Source of the DNA: a virus | Strand: one strand, 5' to 3' | Length of the DNA stretch: 56,503 nucleotides | Virus record (IMG/VR): IMGVR_UViG_3300025417_000026 | Coordinates: 1 to 56,503 of that record | Shown: one piece after another, positions 13,800 through 45,855 of the stretch | Layout: the number at the start of each line of letters is the position of its first letter | How positions within the stretch are numbered: position 1 is the first letter of the stretch | Position numbers and translations under genes: made by a program | The notes under the pieces: model-generated | What the model was told of the DNA's origin: nothing | Database searches by the model: none | What the model saw: the letters and a program-made list of their open reading frames with translations, nothing else

Positions 13800-16700
13800 T
13801 GGGAATTAGAAGAGCATCAATTGGTACGACAGCCGAAAGAACGGTTAGAAATCAGAGCATATTGCTACCGACTGGTGGTGCTGTTTCTACTGGTATAACA
13901 ACTGTTGTTTATACTGACAGCAATTATAATACGCTAACTGCTAATGCGGCCGCTACAACATACGGTACGTTTAGAATTTTAGGTACCGGTTTTTCACCAG
14001 GTGCAAATGTTTTGGTAGCTAACACAAGTTCAGGAACCATTGCAAACGTCACATCAAATACAACATATATAGGTGCAACTGAAATTCGTGCAAACGTAAG
14101 TGTGACTGCTGGTAACTACGCATTGTACGTTTTTAATCCTAACGGTTCAGCGGCAATCTATTATTCTGGTGTAACATTTCAACCATATCCTGTGTGGACA
14201 GCAACGAGTTATGCATCTGCCACTACAGTTTCTGTTCAACTTTTAACATCTTCTACTGCTGTCGAACAGCCTATTACATATTCTTTAGTATCAGGTACGT
14301 TACCTACAGGTACAACATTGGCGGCTAACGGTTTAATTAGTGGTACTGCTACAGGTATTCCTAATGCTGGTCAAACATTCACATTTACAGTTGCCGCAAC
14401 AGACATCTATAATGAAACGACACAGGCATCAATCAGTTTAACAATTACGGTAGCTGATGCATATTTTGATTACACTACATTGTTGTTGAATGGTGAGACT
14501 AATTCGAACACTTATATACAAGATGCCGGTGCAAATAATTTTACGCTAACCCCATATGGTTCTTCAACATCAAATAGATTCAGCCCTATGTGGGGCGATG
14601 GTTATTATGGTAATTCTTTTGATGGTAGTTCTGGGTTTTTAATAACAGCGGCCAATTCTATTCTTGCACCTTCAGCAGATTTTACAGCAGAGGCTTGGGC
14701 ATACACTACAATTAATAATAACTTTCAAGGTATAATGAGTACAAGAGATTCCGGTTCAACAACAGGTTGGGGAATCACAATAAATTCATCAGGATACTTA
14801 GAATTTGTTTGTACTGGTGCAACAGCATATACAGGTACATTAGCACCTTTAAACAGATGGTTTCATGTTGCAATGTCAAAAGTCGGAAGTACTGTATACT
14901 GTTATTTGAATGGTGTTCAAGTTGGAACTTTACCAAGTTCGCCGGCAATTAGCTACAATAGTCTTGGGTTAAGTCTTGGTAGATACTATAGTAACGGTAG
15001 TAATCAATATTGGTTAAATGGTTATATTAGTAATGCACGTTATATAAATGGAACCGGCATATACACAGGAAGTAGTTTTACAGTTCCTACAACACCATTG
15101 ACAGCGATTGCAAATACTGCTGTCCTAACTTGTCAATCAAATAGATTTATTGATAATGGTCCTAACGGATTGGCAATAACACCGTCAGGTACAGTTAAAG
15201 TAGTACCTAATCAACCATTTGGTTCAATACCAACAACATCAACAGCAAATACAAACAATACTGGTTACTATAGTGCTCAGTTTGATGGTAGTACGGGGTA
15301 TTTAAATCTAGGGGGTCAATCGACATTTGCATTTGGCTCTAATAGTTTTACTATTGAGGCTTGGATATACCCATTAACCGCTAGTCAAACATCTGTTATA
15401 ACTGATTTTAGACCCTCAGGAGGTAGCGGAGTATATCAATTATTTTATTTAAATTCAGGTGCTTTAACTTATTGGGTAAACGGCACAGGTGTTATTGTAG
15501 GAAGCTCGCCAGTTGCTGGCGTATGGAGCCACGTTGCAGTAGTAAGGAACGGTACAAGTACAATTATGTATTTAAATGGTGTTCAAACAGGTTCTACGTA
15601 TTCAGATTCTAATAGTTATCTTAATGGCGCCAACGCTCCAGTAATTGGAGGTTTAGGCTATACGAGAGGCCAAAACATTTTTAACGGCTATATTTCTAAC
15701 TTTCGTATTGTTAATGGTACCGCAGTATATACTTCAAACTTCACCCCACCGACCACACCACTAACAGCAGTTACAAATACTTCTCTATTAACATTACAAA
15801 ATTCTGTTATTGTTGATAACTCTGCAAATGCATTTACTTTGACACCGACTGGTTCAGTTATAGTATCTAAGAATCAACCATTTGCTTCACCGACAGTTAC
15901 AAGTAATACTATAACACCAAGTGTTTATGGTAGCGTATTGCTTGATGGATCAACAGGATACATGCAAGTACAAGAATCATCTAATCCTGCATTTGCACTT
16001 TCAGGTGATTTTACAATTGAATTGTGGTATTATCCAACAGGTACATCAGGTGGTTACATATACGCACAAACTGTAAGTGGTACAAATTGGTGTATTATTG
16101 GTGCAAGTACTACAACATTAACTGCCGCACAATTTACCGCAACAACGAGTGGTGCTGGCACCGCACAGAATAGTGCGGCAGTTGGAAATCCATATTCATG
16201 GAATCACTTAGCAGTTTGTAGAAAAAGTGGACAAGTAACTGTCTACTTAAATGGTGTTGGTGGTACATCAGTTACAAATACAACATCAATACCATCAACA
16301 TACTTACCAACCATTAGCGGTTATTCACATTCACAAACAGGTTTATTTGCTGGTTATATTTCAAACATTAGGGTAATTAACGGTACCGCAGTTTATACGA
16401 ATAACTTTATACCCCCAACTAGCCCACTAACAGCAGTTGCAAATACATCAGTATTATCATTGCAATATAAAAATTCAGCAAATAACAATGTGTATTATGA
16501 TGACAGCCCAAATAATTTAGTAATTTCTAGAACAGGCATTCCAACACAAGGTACATTTAGCCCATTTAGTCCAACAGGATGGAGTAATTACTTAGGTGGT
16601 TCTGGTTACTATATTGTTTCAAATTCAACCCCAATATCAACAACAACTTCAACATTCACTATTGAAGGTTGGATAAACATGTCGGCAACGCCAGGAGGTT

Positions 16701-36346: not shown

Positions 36347-38041
36347 ATGGCGATTCAAATCTCTCCAGGCGTAATCACTACTGAGATTGACTTAACTACA
36401 GTCGTTCCATCAGTACTTACGACTGCTGGTGCATTTGCTGGTGACTTCCAATGGGGTCCAGCCAATCACATTATGCTGGTAGACAGCGAAACAACTTTAG
36501 TAAACACATTTGGTCCTCCAGATGCAAACTCAGCAACTGCTTTCTTTACTGCCGCTAACTTCTTAGCATACGGTAATAATCTGAACGTAGTTCGTGCTGT
36601 AGGTGCTTTAAGTAACAATGCAGTTCAGAACTCTAGTTCACCTGGTGTTCAAATTATTAATGAAGAAGTTTACTTAGTAAATTATTTCAATGGTTCAGCA
36701 AACTCTTATGGTTCTTTTGCCGCAAGATATCCTGGTACACTAGGAAACTCAATTCAAGTTTCAGTTTGCGATACTTCAACACAGTTCTCATCATGGCAAT
36801 ATAAATCATTGTTTTCTTCAGCACCAGGAACTTCTGCTTCTGTAGCACAAGTCGGTGGTTCACAAGATGAGATGCACATTGTTGTTGCAGACGTTGGTGG
36901 TTTAATTACTGGTAACTCTGGACAAGTTCTTGAAACATTTGGTTTTGTTTCTAAAGCAGGTGATGCACAAATTAACGGCAATTCAAATTACTGGAAACAA
37001 GTAATATTTGACAGGTCACAATACATCTATGCTATGGACCCACCAGAATATTCAGCAACTCATGCAACTTGGGGTTCAAATTCTGCAAACACAACGTTCG
37101 TACAACTTTCAAACGTTGAAAATGCTTTCTTATCTCTTGGTACAAATCCAAAACCATCAGATGCAAATATTGAAAATGCTTATGGTTTATTCGCTAACAA
37201 AGAGCATATCGACATTTCTTTAGTTCTAACTGGTGATGCAAACAATACAGTTCAAAACTATGTTTATAGCAACATCATTTCAACAAGACAAGATTGCGTT
37301 GGATTCTTCTCGCCACCAGCTAACACAGTTGTAAACAATTGGGGTAGCGAAGCAAGTGCTGTTACAAATTATTTCCAAAGCACATTGAATATTCAATCAT
37401 CATATTTGGTTGCCGATTCAAACTGGAAATATCAATTTGACAAATACAACAACGTATATCGTTGGATTCCATTGAACGGTGATATTGCCGGTCTATGTGT
37501 AAACACAGATGCAGTTGCAGACCCATGGTTCTCACCAGCTGGTTTCAACCGTGGTGCAATTAAGAACGCTATCAAACTAGCATGGAATCCTACGAAACCT
37601 GCAAGAGATACTTTGTATGCGGCAGGTATTAATCCAATCGTATCATTCCCTGGACAAGGTATCGTTCTATACGGTGACAAGACTCTACAATCTAAGCCTT
37701 CTGCTTTTGACAGAATCAACGTTCGTAGATTGTTCTTAGTACTTGAGAAAGCAATTTCTACAGCCGCAAGATACTCATTGTTTGAATTCAATGATTCGTT
37801 TACACAAGCACAATTTGTTAACTTGGTAACACCATTCTTACGTGACGTTCAAGGTCGCCGTGGTATTACAAACTTCTACGTACAATGTGATTCAACTAAT
37901 AACACACCACAAGTTATTAATGCAAATCAGTTTGTTGGTAGCATTTATGTTGTACCAAATCGTTCTACGAATTTCATTCAGTTGAACTTTGTTGCTGTAG
38001 ATACAGGTGTTGACTTCTCAACAGTTGTTGGCTCAGTATAA
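36347..38041 (+). CDS. 18: Tail sheath protein gp18
   Basis: A 564-residue contractile sheath subunit. The N-terminus ISPGVITTEIDLTTVVPSVL is the classic start of T4-type sheath proteins, followed by FAGDFQWGPANH and PGTLGNSIQVSV. The conserved C-terminal sheath domain includes FDRINVRRLFLVLEKAISTA, FTQAQFVNLVTPFLRDVQGR and NFIQLNFVAV. T4 gp18 is 659 residues; this one is shorter in the surface-exposed middle, as in other marine T4-like phages. A strong CAAGGAG ribosome site is present. Confidence 0.95.
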   Translation: MAIQISPGVITTEIDLTTVVPSVLTTAGAFAGDFQWGPANHIMLVDSETTLVNTFGPPDANSATAFFTAANFLAYGNNLNVVRAVGALSNNAVQNSSSPGVQIINEEVYLVNYFNGSANSYGSFAARYPGTLGNSIQVSVCDTSTQFSSWQYKSLFSSAPGTSASVAQVGGSQDEMHIVVADVGGLITGNSGQVLETFGFVSKAGDAQINGNSNYWKQVIFDRSQYIYAMDPPEYSATHATWGSNSANTTFVQLSNVENAFLSLGTNPKPSDANIENAYGLFANKEHIDISLVLTGDANNTVQNYVYSNIISTRQDCVGFFSPPANTVVNNWGSEASAVTNYFQSTLNIQSSYLVADSNWKYQFDKYNNVYRWIPLNGDIAGLCVNTDAVADPWFSPAGFNRGAIKNAIKLAWNPTKPARDTLYAAGINPIVSFPGQGIVLYGDKTLQSKPSAFDRINVRRLFLVLEKAISTAARYSLFEFNDSFTQAQFVNLVTPFLRDVQGRRGITNFYVQCDSTNNTPQVINANQFVGSIYVVPNRSTNFIQLNFVAVDTGVDFSTVVGSV

Positions 38042-40406: not shown

Positions 40407-40961
40407 ATGACTAGCAGAGCAGTTATAGATTATACAATGGAAGACGATTCTCTTGGCGTAAGAGATGCTTTATATTCTGCAATTCAAGACCGTGTTATGG
40501 CACATATTGAAGCAAAGAAAGCAGAAATAGCGGCAAACTTTATTACACCACATCAAGAAGAGACAGATGTTGAGGTCGATGAAGACCTAGAAAATGAGAT
40601 GAAATATTATGCTAATGTACCAGAAGGTGTTGAGGTATTTGTACCAAAACAATCTATTACAGAAGCAAAAGATAAAAAGCCTAAAGAAGAGCACCCATGG
40701 AGAATGGACAAAGACCGTGAAGGTACTGGCTACCATGAAATCAATTCTGTGCGTCCTAAGACAGCATTAGTAAATGGTGTTCCTAAGAACCTAGGTCTTG
40801 AGCATGATGGTGTTCATAGTCACGCTTTTGAGAATCAACATGAGGCAGAGAAAGCCGCATTTGATTTAGCGAGCCGTGGTCACATGTGTACTCATCACTG
40901 CCCACAAGGTTACGCTAAAGCGGTTATTCAACCACATCACTCAATGGCGATTGGTTATTAA
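40407..40961 (+). CDS. 67: gp67-like prohead core protein with His/Cys-rich C-terminal extension
   Basis: The 184 residues sit in the gp67 slot between gp20 and gp21. The N-terminal part (RDALYSAIQDRVMAHIEAKK then AEIAAN) fits the small prohead core protein. The C-terminal 85 residues are different: HPWRMDKDREGTGYHEIN, GLEHDGVHSHAF, then RGHMCTHHCPQGYAKAV with clustered His and Cys that could bind metal. T4 gp67 is only about 80 residues, so the second half is an added domain. It has a TAGGAG site and ends with a TAATG overlap to the next gene. The gp67 assignment rests on position plus the short N-terminal similarity. Confidence 0.65.
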   Translation: MTSRAVIDYTMEDDSLGVRDALYSAIQDRVMAHIEAKKAEIAANFITPHQEETDVEVDEDLENEMKYYANVPEGVEVFVPKQSITEAKDKKPKEEHPWRMDKDREGTGYHEINSVRPKTALVNGVPKNLGLEHDGVHSHAFENQHEAEKAAFDLASRGHMCTHHCPQGYAKAVIQPHHSMAIGY

Positions 40962-41443
40962 TGAAATCAATTAGAGAGTTTATTGATATTAAATCATCCG
41001 AGGCGGAAACGCTTTCGGAGGACTCTCTATTGGAAGCCCCACAAGGTAAGGAAGTCTCTGCAACGAAGACTGACTTACCTTCTCTTTTGACGTTACAAAG
41101 AAAATCAATACGCCGTCTACCAAACGGTGAAAAGGTTGCTTTGTACTATGCCAGTAAGATTAATAAATATGTAACAATACCATATTCAGACGTTCATTCT
41201 GAAGAATATGAAAAAGGTAACAATTTAGAATGTCTTCAAGACATAGTAGAGAGCAATAAAGCTAATGCAATTATTTTTGAAGATGGTAAAACGATGATGG
41301 TAAATATTGCAACTGCAAAGAAAGTCTTAAGACTACACGAGTCTTTAGATGCCACAAATCGTTTAAAGATTTATAGAATGGTTGATGAGAGCAAAGAACA
41401 GTTTAAGAAAGTAGTTGGTTTTGCTTTCACACATATAAAATAA
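40961..41443 (+). CDS. Prohead core-like protein in gp68 position
   Basis: The 160 residues, starting MKSIREFIDIKSSEAE, overlap the upstream gene by one base. It is the positional counterpart of T4 gp68 (about 141 residues), but similarity is too low to be certain by eye. The N-terminal 45 residues are acidic and flexible, then LPSLLTLQRKSIRRLPNGEK, VALYYASKINKYVTIPYSDV and a helical end. LSEDSLLEAPQG contains LxE sites of the type cut by the gp21 protease, which fits a core protein processed during head maturation. Confidence 0.6.
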   Translation: MKSIREFIDIKSSEAETLSEDSLLEAPQGKEVSATKTDLPSLLTLQRKSIRRLPNGEKVALYYASKINKYVTIPYSDVHSEEYEKGNNLECLQDIVESNKANAIIFEDGKTMMVNIATAKKVLRLHESLDATNRLKIYRMVDESKEQFKKVVGFAFTHIK

Positions 41444-41451
41444 GGTAAAAA

Positions 41452-41964
41452 ATGGCAAATCAATATACATACCAAATTATAAAAGATAATGTCAATCACA
41501 CTATCATTAAATTGACTGGTCAGTTTGATGGTAGCGGTCAAGAATCTAATCTTAATAGAATTCAAGCAAACACACTTTACGGCGCTTTAAATACTGCCGG
41601 TGGTGCATTGTCAGGTGGTGGTACATCATTACCATTTTACGGATTATTAATCAATCGTGTTTGGTATGATGTTAGCGGTACAGGTAACGCACAATTAGTT
41701 TGGTCTTCAGATACAGCACAAACTATATTCTATATGACTGGCGGACACGAATATGATGCTATGGGAAATTGGGTAACTATTCCTAACAATGCATATGGTC
41801 AAGCTAACTGTAATGGAAATATTGGTATCATAACTCACGGTATGTCTGCAAACGATGGTTACAGTATTGTAGTAGAAGTACGTAAAGATAACATCTATTA
41901 TCAACGTGGACATCTTGATGATCCTGCTTCATTCAATTATGGCATTTATAGAACTACACCTTAA
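41452..41964 (+). CDS. Putative head decoration-type protein, copy 1
   Basis: A 170-residue all-beta protein of unknown function: YTYQIIKDNVNHTIIKLTGQ, then FDGSGQE, NRIQANTLYGAL, a central strand block, and a C-terminal VEVRKDNIYYQRGHLDDPAS then FNYGIYRT. The next gene is a paralogue with the same N- and C-terminal signatures. Being inside the prohead block, between the positional gp68 and gp21, it is probably on or in the capsid; a decoration protein is a guess based on position and fold style. The ribosome site is TAAGG. Confidence 0.65.
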   Translation: MANQYTYQIIKDNVNHTIIKLTGQFDGSGQESNLNRIQANTLYGALNTAGGALSGGGTSLPFYGLLINRVWYDVSGTGNAQLVWSSDTAQTIFYMTGGHEYDAMGNWVTIPNNAYGQANCNGNIGIITHGMSANDGYSIVVEVRKDNIYYQRGHLDDPASFNYGIYRTTP

Positions 41965-41966
41965 TC

Positions 41967-42557
41967 ATGGCTAACAAATATACTTACCAAGTTTTAAGAG
42001 ATACTACAACAGATGCTGTGATTAAACTCACAGGCAGTTTTGATGGTACTGGACAAGAAGCAAACACATCTAGAATTCAAGCAAATAGTCTTGCTGGTGC
42101 GATTGCAACTAACGGTTATCTTGTAGCAAATTCTACAAATTCTTTTGCTAATACACCTTTATCATATTACGACCTTCAGTTAACCGGTTTAAAATATTTT
42201 GTCAACTTCCCAACAAATACTGTTGGTGGTGTCGAAATCTTTTGGTCTGGCAACGGCACATCATTCTCAACACAGTATGCAAACTCTGCAACGATAGTGC
42301 ATTTGAATGGTCAAGGTGAGATGGGTATGGGAGAACAATTACCATCTATTCTAAATAATTCTGGTGCAACAGCAAACGGATATATTATACCAGCAAACGT
42401 TGGTCTTGGTGATATCGGTGTTACTACACAAGGTGCAACTGCAAACTGTGCGTATACATTAATATTGCAAGTGAGAAAGAATAACGCTCAATATCAACGT
42501 GGTCAGTTCAATGATCCGGCCGCATTTAACTACGGAATATACAAACAAATACCATGA
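41967..42557 (+). CDS. Putative head decoration-type protein, copy 2
   Basis: A 196-residue tandem paralogue of the previous gene: YTYQVLRDTTTDAVIKLTGS, FDGTGQEANTSRIQANSLAG at the start and LQVRKNNAQYQRGQFNDPAA then FNYGIYKQ at the end. The middle differs and is about 25 residues longer, with an inserted NG.L.ANSTNSFAN stretch. It starts 2 nt after copy 1, and its stop overlaps the gp21 ATG (ATGA). Conserved edges and a variable middle suggest a shared attachment mode with a different exposed face. Confidence 0.65.
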   Translation: MANKYTYQVLRDTTTDAVIKLTGSFDGTGQEANTSRIQANSLAGAIATNGYLVANSTNSFANTPLSYYDLQLTGLKYFVNFPTNTVGGVEIFWSGNGTSFSTQYANSATIVHLNGQGEMGMGEQLPSILNNSGATANGYIIPANVGLGDIGVTTQGATANCAYTLILQVRKNNAQYQRGQFNDPAAFNYGIYKQIP

Positions 42558-43198
42558 AACTAATCAAAGAAATTACAGAATCGGTAAACTATATTACCGA
42601 AGAAAAAGATGGAAAGAAAACTCTATTCATCGAAGGTCCTTTTTTAGTTACTGAAAGAGAAAACAAGAATAAACGTCTGTATGAACACGGTACAATGCTT
42701 AAAGAAGTTAAGCGTTATACTGAAGAGTACATCAATAAAAACCGTGCATACGGTGAATTAGGTCATCCAGACACACCTTCGATTAACTTAGACCGTGTAT
42801 CACACATCATTACTTCTCTCAAAGAAGACGGTCATCAGTTTATCGGAAGAGCAAAAATACTTGATACCCCAATGGGACAGATTGCCAGAAACCTTATCGA
42901 AGGTGGTGGTCAACTAGGAGTCTCATCTCGTGGTATGGGTTCATTGAAGAATGTTAATGGAGTCAACATTGTTCAAGACGATTTTTATCTAGCCACAGCG
43001 GCAGATATTGTAGCTGATCCATCAGCACCAGGTGCGTTTGTACAAGGTATAATGGAAGGCAAAGAGTGGATGTTAGTAGACGGTGTATGGACAGAACGTC
43101 AATTAGAAGAATCTAAGAAGATGATTCGTCAAGCTACACCTAGAGAGATTGAAGCTGTCGGCTTGAAAATCTTTGAAAACTTCATCAAAAAATTATAA
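42554..43198 (+). CDS. 21: Prohead maturation protease gp21
   Basis: A 214-residue T4-type prohead protease. KTLFIEGPFLVTERENKNKR, AYGELGHPDTPSINLDRVSH (catalytic His in GHP) and QLGVSSRGMGSL (catalytic Ser) are diagnostic. It cuts core and shell proteins after (L/I)xE during head maturation. T4 gp21 has 212 residues, the same length. The start overlaps the previous stop (ATGA). Confidence 0.95.
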   Translation: MKLIKEITESVNYITEEKDGKKTLFIEGPFLVTERENKNKRLYEHGTMLKEVKRYTEEYINKNRAYGELGHPDTPSINLDRVSHIITSLKEDGHQFIGRAKILDTPMGQIARNLIEGGGQLGVSSRGMGSLKNVNGVNIVQDDFYLATAADIVADPSAPGAFVQGIMEGKEWMLVDGVWTERQLEESKKMIRQATPREIEAVGLKIFENFIKKL

Positions 43199-43200
43199 AA

Positions 43201-43208
43201 TATAAATA
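43201..43208 (+). promoter_or_regulatory. Late promoter TATAAATA before gp22
   Basis: Perfect T4 late element 2 nt after the gp21 stop. The predicted start near 43214 leaves a 25-nt leader with ATAGGAG before ATG 43239. Confidence 0.7.
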
Positions 43209-43238: not shown

Positions 43239-44447
43239 ATGGGAAAATTCAATCTGTCAGATGCCGCTAAAGCTATTTTGAACGAAGGCTCAAAAGAGAC
43301 TTTAGAAGGTAACGTAAAACAAAAGATGGGTCAAAGAGGATCCGACAAGCACCCAAGCGGTGAAGTTGGAAAAGATGCCGTTAAGCCAAATATTGCTTAC
43401 GGTTCTAAATCTGCTGGTATGGTAGGTCAATCACCAGAAGAAATGGATGATGCATTACCAGATTACTTAAAAGGCACACCAACAGCAACAGCACCAGGTG
43501 CAACACCACCTGTAGGTTCAGAAAAAGACGGTGTTGGTTATTCTAAGCCAAAAGGTCAACCACAAGAAACAATGGGACGCAAAGACATTATGGTACCTGC
43601 ACAAGATACAGCTAATCAATACGATGCTATCCGTGACCGTGTTGCATCAAAATTAGCAAAACAAACAATGAAGCCAAATCCAGGTGCTACATTCCAATCA
43701 TATGGTGAAGGTATTGACCTTTCTGATGACGTAAATGCGTTGCTAGAAGGTGAATCTTTATCTGAAGAATTCAAATTAAAAGCAACAACAATCTTTGAAG
43801 CCGCTGTTACATCACGCATCGAAGCAATTGTTGAAGAAGTTGAAGCAAGTTTAGTAGAACAATACGAAGCTGGTATCGAACAAATCAAAGAAGAACTAGC
43901 AGAAAAACTAGACCAGTATATTGATTACTTTGCAGAACAATACATGATTCAAAACGAATTGGCAATTGTTTCCGGTCTACGTGCAGAAATTGCCGAAGAC
44001 TTTATGACAAGCCTGCGTAACGTATTCATGGAACACAATATTGACATTCCAGAAGAGCAAGTTCAAGTTGTCGAAGAGTTGACAACAAGAGTTGAAGAAC
44101 TAGAACAAGCCTTGGATGAAGAAGTCAAAAACGCTGTTGCTTTAAAGAGAGCACTAAGCGAACAAGTAAAAATTGAGGCTATCCACACAGCTTGTGAAGG
44201 CCTAACTCAGACTCAGGAAGAAAAATTAAAATCACTCGCAGAGGGTGTTGAATTTACTACTGAAGAAGAATTTAATGCTAAACTAAACGTTTTGAAAGAA
44301 TCTTATTTCAAAGCAGACGTTAAAGTTGCAGAAAGTTCTATGCTGAACGAAGGTATTGAAATTGAAGAAGAGAAGAAACAAAACGTTTCAACAGATGATT
44401 CAATCAATCAATATGTCAGAACTATTTCACAAACTTTGGTAAAATAA
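43239..44447 (+). CDS. 22: Prohead scaffold (core) protein gp22
   Basis: The 402 residues lie between the protease and the major capsid gene, as in T4. The N-terminal 150 residues are low-complexity and polar (Gly/Pro/Lys-rich). The rest is acidic and helical, with long coiled-coil segments (IVEEVEASLVEQYEAGIEQI, VEELTTRVEELEQALDEEVK), typical of scaffold proteins that are degraded inside the head. Several LxE sites (ILNEG, LLEGE) could be gp21 targets. It is much longer than T4 gp22 (about 269), as in other marine T4-like phages. Confidence 0.92.
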   Translation: MGKFNLSDAAKAILNEGSKETLEGNVKQKMGQRGSDKHPSGEVGKDAVKPNIAYGSKSAGMVGQSPEEMDDALPDYLKGTPTATAPGATPPVGSEKDGVGYSKPKGQPQETMGRKDIMVPAQDTANQYDAIRDRVASKLAKQTMKPNPGATFQSYGEGIDLSDDVNALLEGESLSEEFKLKATTIFEAAVTSRIEAIVEEVEASLVEQYEAGIEQIKEELAEKLDQYIDYFAEQYMIQNELAIVSGLRAEIAEDFMTSLRNVFMEHNIDIPEEQVQVVEELTTRVEELEQALDEEVKNAVALKRALSEQVKIEAIHTACEGLTQTQEEKLKSLAEGVEFTTEEEFNAKLNVLKESYFKADVKVAESSMLNEGIEIEEEKKQNVSTDDSINQYVRTISQTLVK

Positions 44448-44490: not shown

Positions 44491-45855
44491 ATGTATCTAT
44501 CCGAAGAACTACAAAAGAAATGGCAACCAGTTCTGGAGCACCCAGAATTAGAAGCAATTAAAGACCCATACAAGAGAGCAGTTACATCTGTTATTCTTGA
44601 GAACCAACATCAAGCGATGCAAAAAGACCGTCAGGCTTTGCATGAGACTACAGATACTGGTCCTACAAACGTTACTGGTGGCGTTCAGAACTTTGACCCA
44701 ATCTTAATCAGCTTGGTTCGCCGTTCATTACCAAACTTGATTGCATATGACATTGCTGGTGTACAGCCAATGACAGGTCCAACAGGTTTGATTTTCGCAA
44801 TGCGTGCCCGTTATACAGGCCAAGGTACTGGTAATGCTGAAGCGTTCTATAACGAAGCAAACACAGTATTCACTGGTGCTAACACAGGTACTCAGTACAA
44901 CGAATACGGATTCTCTGGTAACACAGCATCTGATACATCAAACAACTACTTCGCATCTACATTCGGTGCTCCAAATGGTGCAAACAACTTCACAACTGGT
45001 ATCGGTATTCAAACATCAATGGCTGAATACTTGGGTTCAGACTCTAATACTGCTTTCCAACAAATGGCATTCTCTATCGAGAAAGTTACTGTTACAGCAC
45101 AATCTAGAGCATTGAAAGCTGAGTACTCTTTAGAACTCGCACAAGACTTGAAAGCAATTCACGGTCTTGATGCAGAAACAGAATTGTCAAACATTCTGTC
45201 TACAGAGATTCTAGCTGAGATTAACCGTGAAGTTATCCGTACAATCTATTTGTCTGCCGTTCCTGGTGCACAATACGGTACAGTAACAAAAGGTTATTTC
45301 GACTTAGATACTGACTCAAACGGTCGTTGGTCTGTTGAGCGTTTCAAAGGTTTGATTTTCCAAGTTGAGCGTGATGCTAACGTTATTGCAAAGCAAACTC
45401 GTCGTGGTAAAGGTAACGTGATGATTGTATCATCTGACGTTGCTTCCGCTATGGCAATGGCTGGTGTATTGTCTTATACTCCTGCTCTACAAGCTGACTT
45501 GCAAGTTGACGATACAGGTAACACATTCGCTGGATTGTTACATGGTCGTATCAAAGTTTACATCGACCCATACTTCGGTGGTTACCAACAAAATATCGAA
45601 TTGGCAACAATCGGTTACAAAGGTACATCACCATATGATGCAGGTCTATTCTACTGCCCATACGTACCGTTACAAATGGTTCGTGCAGTTGACCAGTTCA
45701 CATTCCAACCAAAAATTGGATTCAAGACTCGTTACGGCATGGTAGCAAACCCATTTGCACAAGGTCTTAACACACCTGCAGGTAATAACAACGGCTTGAT
45801 TCAAGCTGGTACAAACGTTTACTACCGAATTTTCGGTGTTAAAAACTTGATGTAA
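44491..45855 (+). CDS. 23: Major capsid protein gp23
   Basis: A 454-residue major capsid protein. Family segments: FDPILISLVRRSLPNLIAYD, IAGVQPMTGPTGLIFAMRAR, VTAQSRALKAEYSLELAQDL, AELSNIL-type segments and a C-terminal FQPKIGFKTRYGMVANPFAQ. The N-terminal delta region contains ALHE (Glu52), a fitting (L/I)xE gp21 cleavage site just before the folded part; cleavage there is inference. T4 gp23 is 521 residues; the shorter form is usual in marine T4-like phages. A strong terminator follows. Confidence 0.96.
   Translation: MYLSEELQKKWQPVLEHPELEAIKDPYKRAVTSVILENQHQAMQKDRQALHETTDTGPTNVTGGVQNFDPILISLVRRSLPNLIAYDIAGVQPMTGPTGLIFAMRARYTGQGTGNAEAFYNEANTVFTGANTGTQYNEYGFSGNTASDTSNNYFASTFGAPNGANNFTTGIGIQTSMAEYLGSDSNTAFQQMAFSIEKVTVTAQSRALKAEYSLELAQDLKAIHGLDAETELSNILSTEILAEINREVIRTIYLSAVPGAQYGTVTKGYFDLDTDSNGRWSVERFKGLIFQVERDANVIAKQTRRGKGNVMIVSSDVASAMAMAGVLSYTPALQADLQVDDTGNTFAGLLHGRIKVYIDPYFGGYQQNIELATIGYKGTSPYDAGLFYCPYVPLQMVRAVDQFTFQPKIGFKTRYGMVANPFAQGLNTPAGNNNGLIQAGTNVYYRIFGVKNLM

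Follow-up and report, generated by a model that had tools for sequence, protein, structure and literature searches.

What are two genes without a counterpart in phage T4 doing directly in front of the prohead protease, at one of the most orderly places of a T4-like genome? In T4 the head genes run 20-67-68-21-22-23, gene 68 being followed immediately by 21, and in the cyanophages P-RSM4 and QB2 a single small ORF separates gp20 from gp21; none of these three gp20-gp21 intervals holds a counterpart of XA and XB, the pair found in the 56,503-nucleotide viral sequence analysed here (IMG/VR record IMGVR_UViG_3300025417_000026, hereafter the window), and the T4 order is thus interrupted by the pair, as the initial annotation had recognized (Table 1). 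That annotation placed the pair between a positional gp68 and gp21, and the location is correct, but the gene at the gp68 position bears no likeness to T4 gp68 (hhalign probability 0.2%).

Table 1. Features of the window at and around the XA-XB pair.
Feature	Position	Strand	Remarks
gp67-like prohead gene	40407..40961	+	phrog_1064 prohead, 1.4e-4
Gene at gp68 position	40961..41443	+	phrog_696 (head family), 5e-6
XA, first paralogue, putative capsid cement/decoration protein	41452..41964	+	170 aa, ATG start
XB, second paralogue, putative capsid cement/decoration protein	41967..42557	+	196 aa, ATG start
ATGA shared by XB stop and gp21 start	42554..42557	+	
gp21 prohead protease	42554..43198	+	Peptidase_S77 1.8e-32; phrog_207 6e-76 (profile)
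TATAAATA late-promoter-like site before gp22	43201..43208	+	
gp22 scaffold	43239..44447	+	T4_CASP 3.4e-65 (profile)
gp23 major capsid protein	44491..45855	+	position and homology to annotated HTVC008M major capsid protein, E 4e-165

The genes are tightly packed: only 2 bases separate XA from XB, AAGG lies shortly 5' of the XA start, and the overlap of XB with gp21 makes translational coupling of these two likely, judging from the sequence. The same -4 spacing to gp21 is seen in 47 of the 107 freshwater-set loci that contain gp21. Late-promoter-like TATAAATA sites are present in the window at 38037, 43201 and 45915, the first two just before gp19 and gp22, respectively; as none lies directly before XA and XB, for which these two are the nearest, the pair is probably transcribed by read-through from an upstream promoter.

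XA and XB had been described as tandem paralogues that are beta-rich, with conserved edges and a variable centre, and this description has stood up well. They are 39% identical over their full length (BLASTP, E 1e-40), as expected of true paralogues rather than of a chance resemblance, and among 31 freshwater members of the family, which we call X, mean column entropy is 0.77-1.00 bit at residues 1-42 and 0.85-0.90 bit at residues 169-196, against 1.31-1.78 bit at residues 43-168; the AlphaFold2 model of XB supports a beta-rich fold. Profile searches of Pfam and PHROGs gave no name to either protein, the best PHROGs match among 101 family members being an unconvincing one of a single member to a tail protein family (E 0.0043). 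When the profiles A1 and A2 were compared with the sequences of the PDB, nothing significant was obtained, so that X is not tied by sequence to a cement protein of solved structure.

The family is common in freshwater T4-like phages and in SAR11 myophages. Six tblastn queries against 50,697 phage records found only the pelagiphages HTVC008M and Mosig and the metagenomic myophage ct2os315; of the window's own queries, XA reaches HTVC008M weakly (E 3e-3) and XB reaches no record. Among viral contigs, single queries gave 47 and 9 loci and a profile search at least 586 relatives (IMG/VR), of which the best 80 were used, as were the best 80 of 233 marine relatives. The ct2os315 protein has 53 relatives in viral contigs, and a profile built from all of these sets joins the groups. 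HTVC008M (AGE60420.1 and AGE60421.1, 134 and 128 aa) and Mosig (QOI69003.1 and its upstream neighbour) each carry a tandem pair of the same family at the same site before gp21, annotated as hypothetical and, at ~128-134 aa, lacking the extended C-terminal tail; for both phages the recorded host is Pelagibacter HTCC1062 (Mosig being listed as EXVC030M). We saw no description of the family in searches of open papers, and the pair goes unmentioned in the accessible part of a survey of pelagimyophages (PMC7029224); the family thus looks undescribed in Pfam, PHROGs and the literature searched. A scan of 84,980 prokaryote genomes yielded one relative, in a Chloroherpeton MAG, where the contig that carries it belongs to a T4-like phage. 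The large terminase gene of this contig is in three ORF pieces (L267:490-3159), possibly because of an intein or a mobile insert.

The strongest argument for a role in the head is that X is linked to head genes in two types of phage that are unrelated to each other. Among 204 loci, a redundant set in which some contigs were fetched twice, gp21 is present in 193, and in all 193 X is directly upstream of it when adjacency is counted among marked genes; the other 11 comprise nine loci without gp21, one with only the start of X (L048) and one from a non-T4 phage (L203). X is confined to the head locus, in one or two copies, in all eight records that were searched whole (up to 236 kb). The second lineage consists of 44-49 kb non-T4 myophages with terminase, portal, GroES-like and major capsid genes, of which 54 loci were examined; wherever the major capsid gene is present (48 loci), X lies downstream of it, and the gene that follows X, although annotated 'tail collar fiber', matches phrog_240 'head protein' (8e-7). 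In both types of locus, then, X has the head-module location near the capsid gene that decoration and cement proteins have. The GroES-like co-chaperonin gene of the non-T4 lineage sits between the portal and capsid genes (L203:4277-4609 and the relatives L204-L256).

The junction between X and gp21 is itself not always empty. In 25 freshwater-set loci at least one extra ORF intervenes, mostly encoding a basic protein that is 95-171 aa long (for example L076:1574-2002 and L021:5438-5878) and absent from the window. By weak hhalign matches, the start of this protein resembles T4 gp67 and its basic end gp68; it has no similarity to X, and we therefore rejected the idea that it is a third X copy. 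Two relatives have ORFs at this place that by eye resemble GIY-YIG homing endonucleases (L096:7032-7400, L121:6579-7172) and that are possible drivers of gene conversion there.

The predicted structures are of the kind expected for a decoration or cement protein, that is, small, compact, mostly-beta domains. The AlphaFold2 model of XB is a beta-sandwich (mean pLDDT 85.3, pTM 0.80) whose least confident part is the last 16 residues (block pLDDT means 58 and 67), and that of HTVC008M X2 has nine strands (pLDDT 91.8, pTM 0.85); the models give strands only, and a jelly-roll topology may be presumed from the kind of matches they obtain. The XB model has no match in the PDB at E ≤ 1e-3 by Foldseek, its top rows being plant-virus coat proteins with low TM. 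It does resemble the model of an uncharacterised protein of an uncultured Caudovirales phage (BFVD A0A6J5T4N4; 40% identity, TM 0.73/0.81), which gives no function. Among the phage structures compared by VIA-align, the cement proteins of KHP30 and KHP40 scored best (Z 6.4-7.2). For XB, KHP30 cement (7dn2) comes at rank 9 with Z 6.4 (108 residues, rmsd 4.4), and for X2, KHP40 trimeric cement (7dou) comes at rank 3 with Z 7.2 (99/124 residues, rmsd 3.5); X2 also matched the Haloferax tailed virus 1 turret at Z 6.1. As all values are below 8 and beta-sandwiches without any relation to cement (PHM, Ena fibres, CBM29, cupins) score just as well, the fold alone proves no function. For the same reason, we rejected an enzyme reading based on PHM and cupins (Z ~6-7), since values tied across unrelated families reflect a common beta-sandwich likeness.

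As modelled, X is a small beta-sandwich similar in size to the trimeric KHP30/KHP40 cement, but profiles A1 and A2 reveal no sequence similarity between them. The KHP30 protein is described as gripping the shell via paired N- and C-terminal strands that run under a neighbouring subunit (PMC9698820), and the jellyroll protein Bbp16 of BPP-1 is likewise said to contact the shell mainly via both of its termini and a single loop (PMC3863775). Bbp16 forms dimers on a podovirus head, has no sequence link to X and is not among the structure-search matches listed for the XB and X2 models, but such termini-based contact matches the conserved ends and variable centre of X. Soc, which stabilizes the gp23 shell of T4 (PMC7602432), is different: it has a beta-tadpole fold, a profile of only 74 positions and a gene elsewhere in T4 (15337-15558). 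The Soc profile PF16855 does not match XA or XB and is absent from five of five relatives, while it was found in the T4 positive control.

We propose that XA and XB are two paralogous, putative outer capsid cement (decoration) proteins, a reading to which we assign a probability of roughly 65%. Two lines of evidence support a capsid role, namely the place of X in the head module of two lineages that are not related and a predicted fold that is compatible with cement, and the proposal of an outer cement follows from the observations that cement proteins grip by their ends, that the ends of X are conserved and that the XB tail is poorly predicted as a monomer, as would be expected of a tail that binds a partner. 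XA and XB would be late proteins, produced along with gp67 and gp21. Once gp21 has processed the head and it has expanded, X would attach to the outer face of the gp23 lattice in oligomeric, perhaps trimeric, form. Its conserved parts, the N-terminal strand region and the C-terminal tail (RGQFNDPAAFNYG), would contact gp23 and an adjacent subunit, with the variable loops facing solvent. X would thus do the job of Soc in these phages, and the two paralogues might occupy different lattice sites or serve as alternative coats. Docking by the tail cannot be universal, as neither HTVC008M X2 nor the non-T4 members have the long C-terminal tail.

The initial annotation had left open whether the proteins belong to the capsid surface or to the core, and it is the surface that is favoured. 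An internal component of the prohead core or scaffold, like gp67 and gp68, would be in keeping with the location of X between a gp67-like gene and gp21, which is the site of the T4 core genes. Charged residues (DEKR), however, make up only 10-12% of XA and XB as compared with 29-31% of gp67p, gp68p and gp22, so that the highly charged makeup of the T4 core proteins is not shared. The gp21 cleavage consensus is [LI]xE. It does not occur in XA or XB, a weak point as only 0.4-0.5 sites are expected by chance, nor within the first 40 residues of any of 31 A1 members; in T4, gp21 is reported to degrade the core proteins gp67 and gp68 (PMC9958956). As the models are also beta-sandwiches, and as the non-T4 homologues follow the capsid gene in phages whose head genes differ from those of T4, a place in the core is very unlikely. 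It is about equally improbable that one paralogue is a vertex analogue or site-specific cap while the other covers the hexamer lattice, although many phages do have two paralogues: gp24 has the HK97 fold, and the predicted beta-sandwiches are unlike that of gp23/gp24, and 43 of the 86 freshwater-set loci with both flanks have a single copy. In favour of the idea, gp24 is reported to be missing in all cyanomyoviruses, for which an analogue has been suggested (PMC2984593); the same study reports these viruses to lack gp67 and gp68 as well, and hoc to be present only in P-SSM2.

Rather than strengthening the shell, X might be a head-displayed adhesin, like the Ig-like multidomain Hoc of T4, that mainly binds carbohydrate on cells or particles. 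The variable centre would suit such a role, and the only two PDB matches of the X2 model at E ≤ 1e-3 by Foldseek, its best, are both CBM29 (E 3e-4 to 1e-3, prob 1.00). These have a TM of only ~0.4 and an rmsd of ~10, however, likeness to the CBM29 fold does not establish binding, and X is under strong purifying selection; we regard an adhesin as unlikely. Least credible to us is a non-virion protein, either an assembly chaperone or an unrelated passenger kept near gp21 by the operon. The homing-endonuclease-like ORFs at the same junction in two relatives speak for it, but the uniform position of X in T4-type members and its linkage to the head module of a second lineage argue against it.

In freshwater pairs with gp23 80-85% identical, the best X match has a median identity of 69% as compared with 79-80% for gp20 and gp21 (medians from 126 of 250 sampled pairs). 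Selection on XA and XB is nonetheless purifying, although their divergence exceeds that of their neighbours: dN/dS is 0.05-0.17, as compared with 0.02-0.04 for gp21, 0.07-0.09 for gp68p and 0.17-0.22 for gp22 and gp67. Positive selection is thereby rejected, and the earlier suggestion that the decoration is possibly host-adaptive finds no support here. In the relative L004, gp21 is 100% identical to that of the window at the amino-acid level, while XA is 75% and XB 84% identical; dS of XA is ~1.3, near saturation by the Nei-Gojobori method, as opposed to 0.25-0.47 in the flanks, an excess that suggests allele exchange in that one case.

Single and duplicated versions of the gene both exist among the relatives. 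Where gp20 and gp21 are on the same contig, the freshwater set comprises 43 single and 43 double loci and the marine set 62 double and no single loci (eight loci were left out, and the counts are not independent). A close relative of the window, L052 (gp20 93%, gp21 99% and gp23 88% identical), has an XA that is 90% identical and no XB. In a tree of X genes, with long branches and bootstrap not fully settled, XB falls in a clade of 47 rows, mostly singles and first copies, and XA groups with L004. Most freshwater pairs have the XB-type gene first, in contrast to the window, where it is second. A recent in-place duplication was rejected, as XA and XB are in separate old clades, and family members have been gained, lost or rearranged. 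The last 34 columns of the L052 X are closer to XB (79%) than to XA (68%), whereas the rest is closer to XA, by which recombination at the shared 3' edge of X genes is only suggested. This paralogue-swapping pattern is unusual. One could go further and imagine, tentatively and with more doubt than conviction, a set of exchangeable cement genes common to T4-type heads and an unrelated lineage of aquatic myophages, in which each T4-type phage draws one or two genes, in either order, from several old paralogues. A virion would then wear a coat of two components, and recombination at the conserved gene ends beside gp21 would add, remove and exchange them.

Both the SAR11 myophages and the T4-like phages of fresh water are abundant, and if the proposal is true, it would provide a testable function for a conserved 'hypothetical' pair in the cultured phages HTVC008M and Mosig. 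X would then also suggest what replaces Soc in these phages, and one decoration fold would serve two unrelated head lineages.
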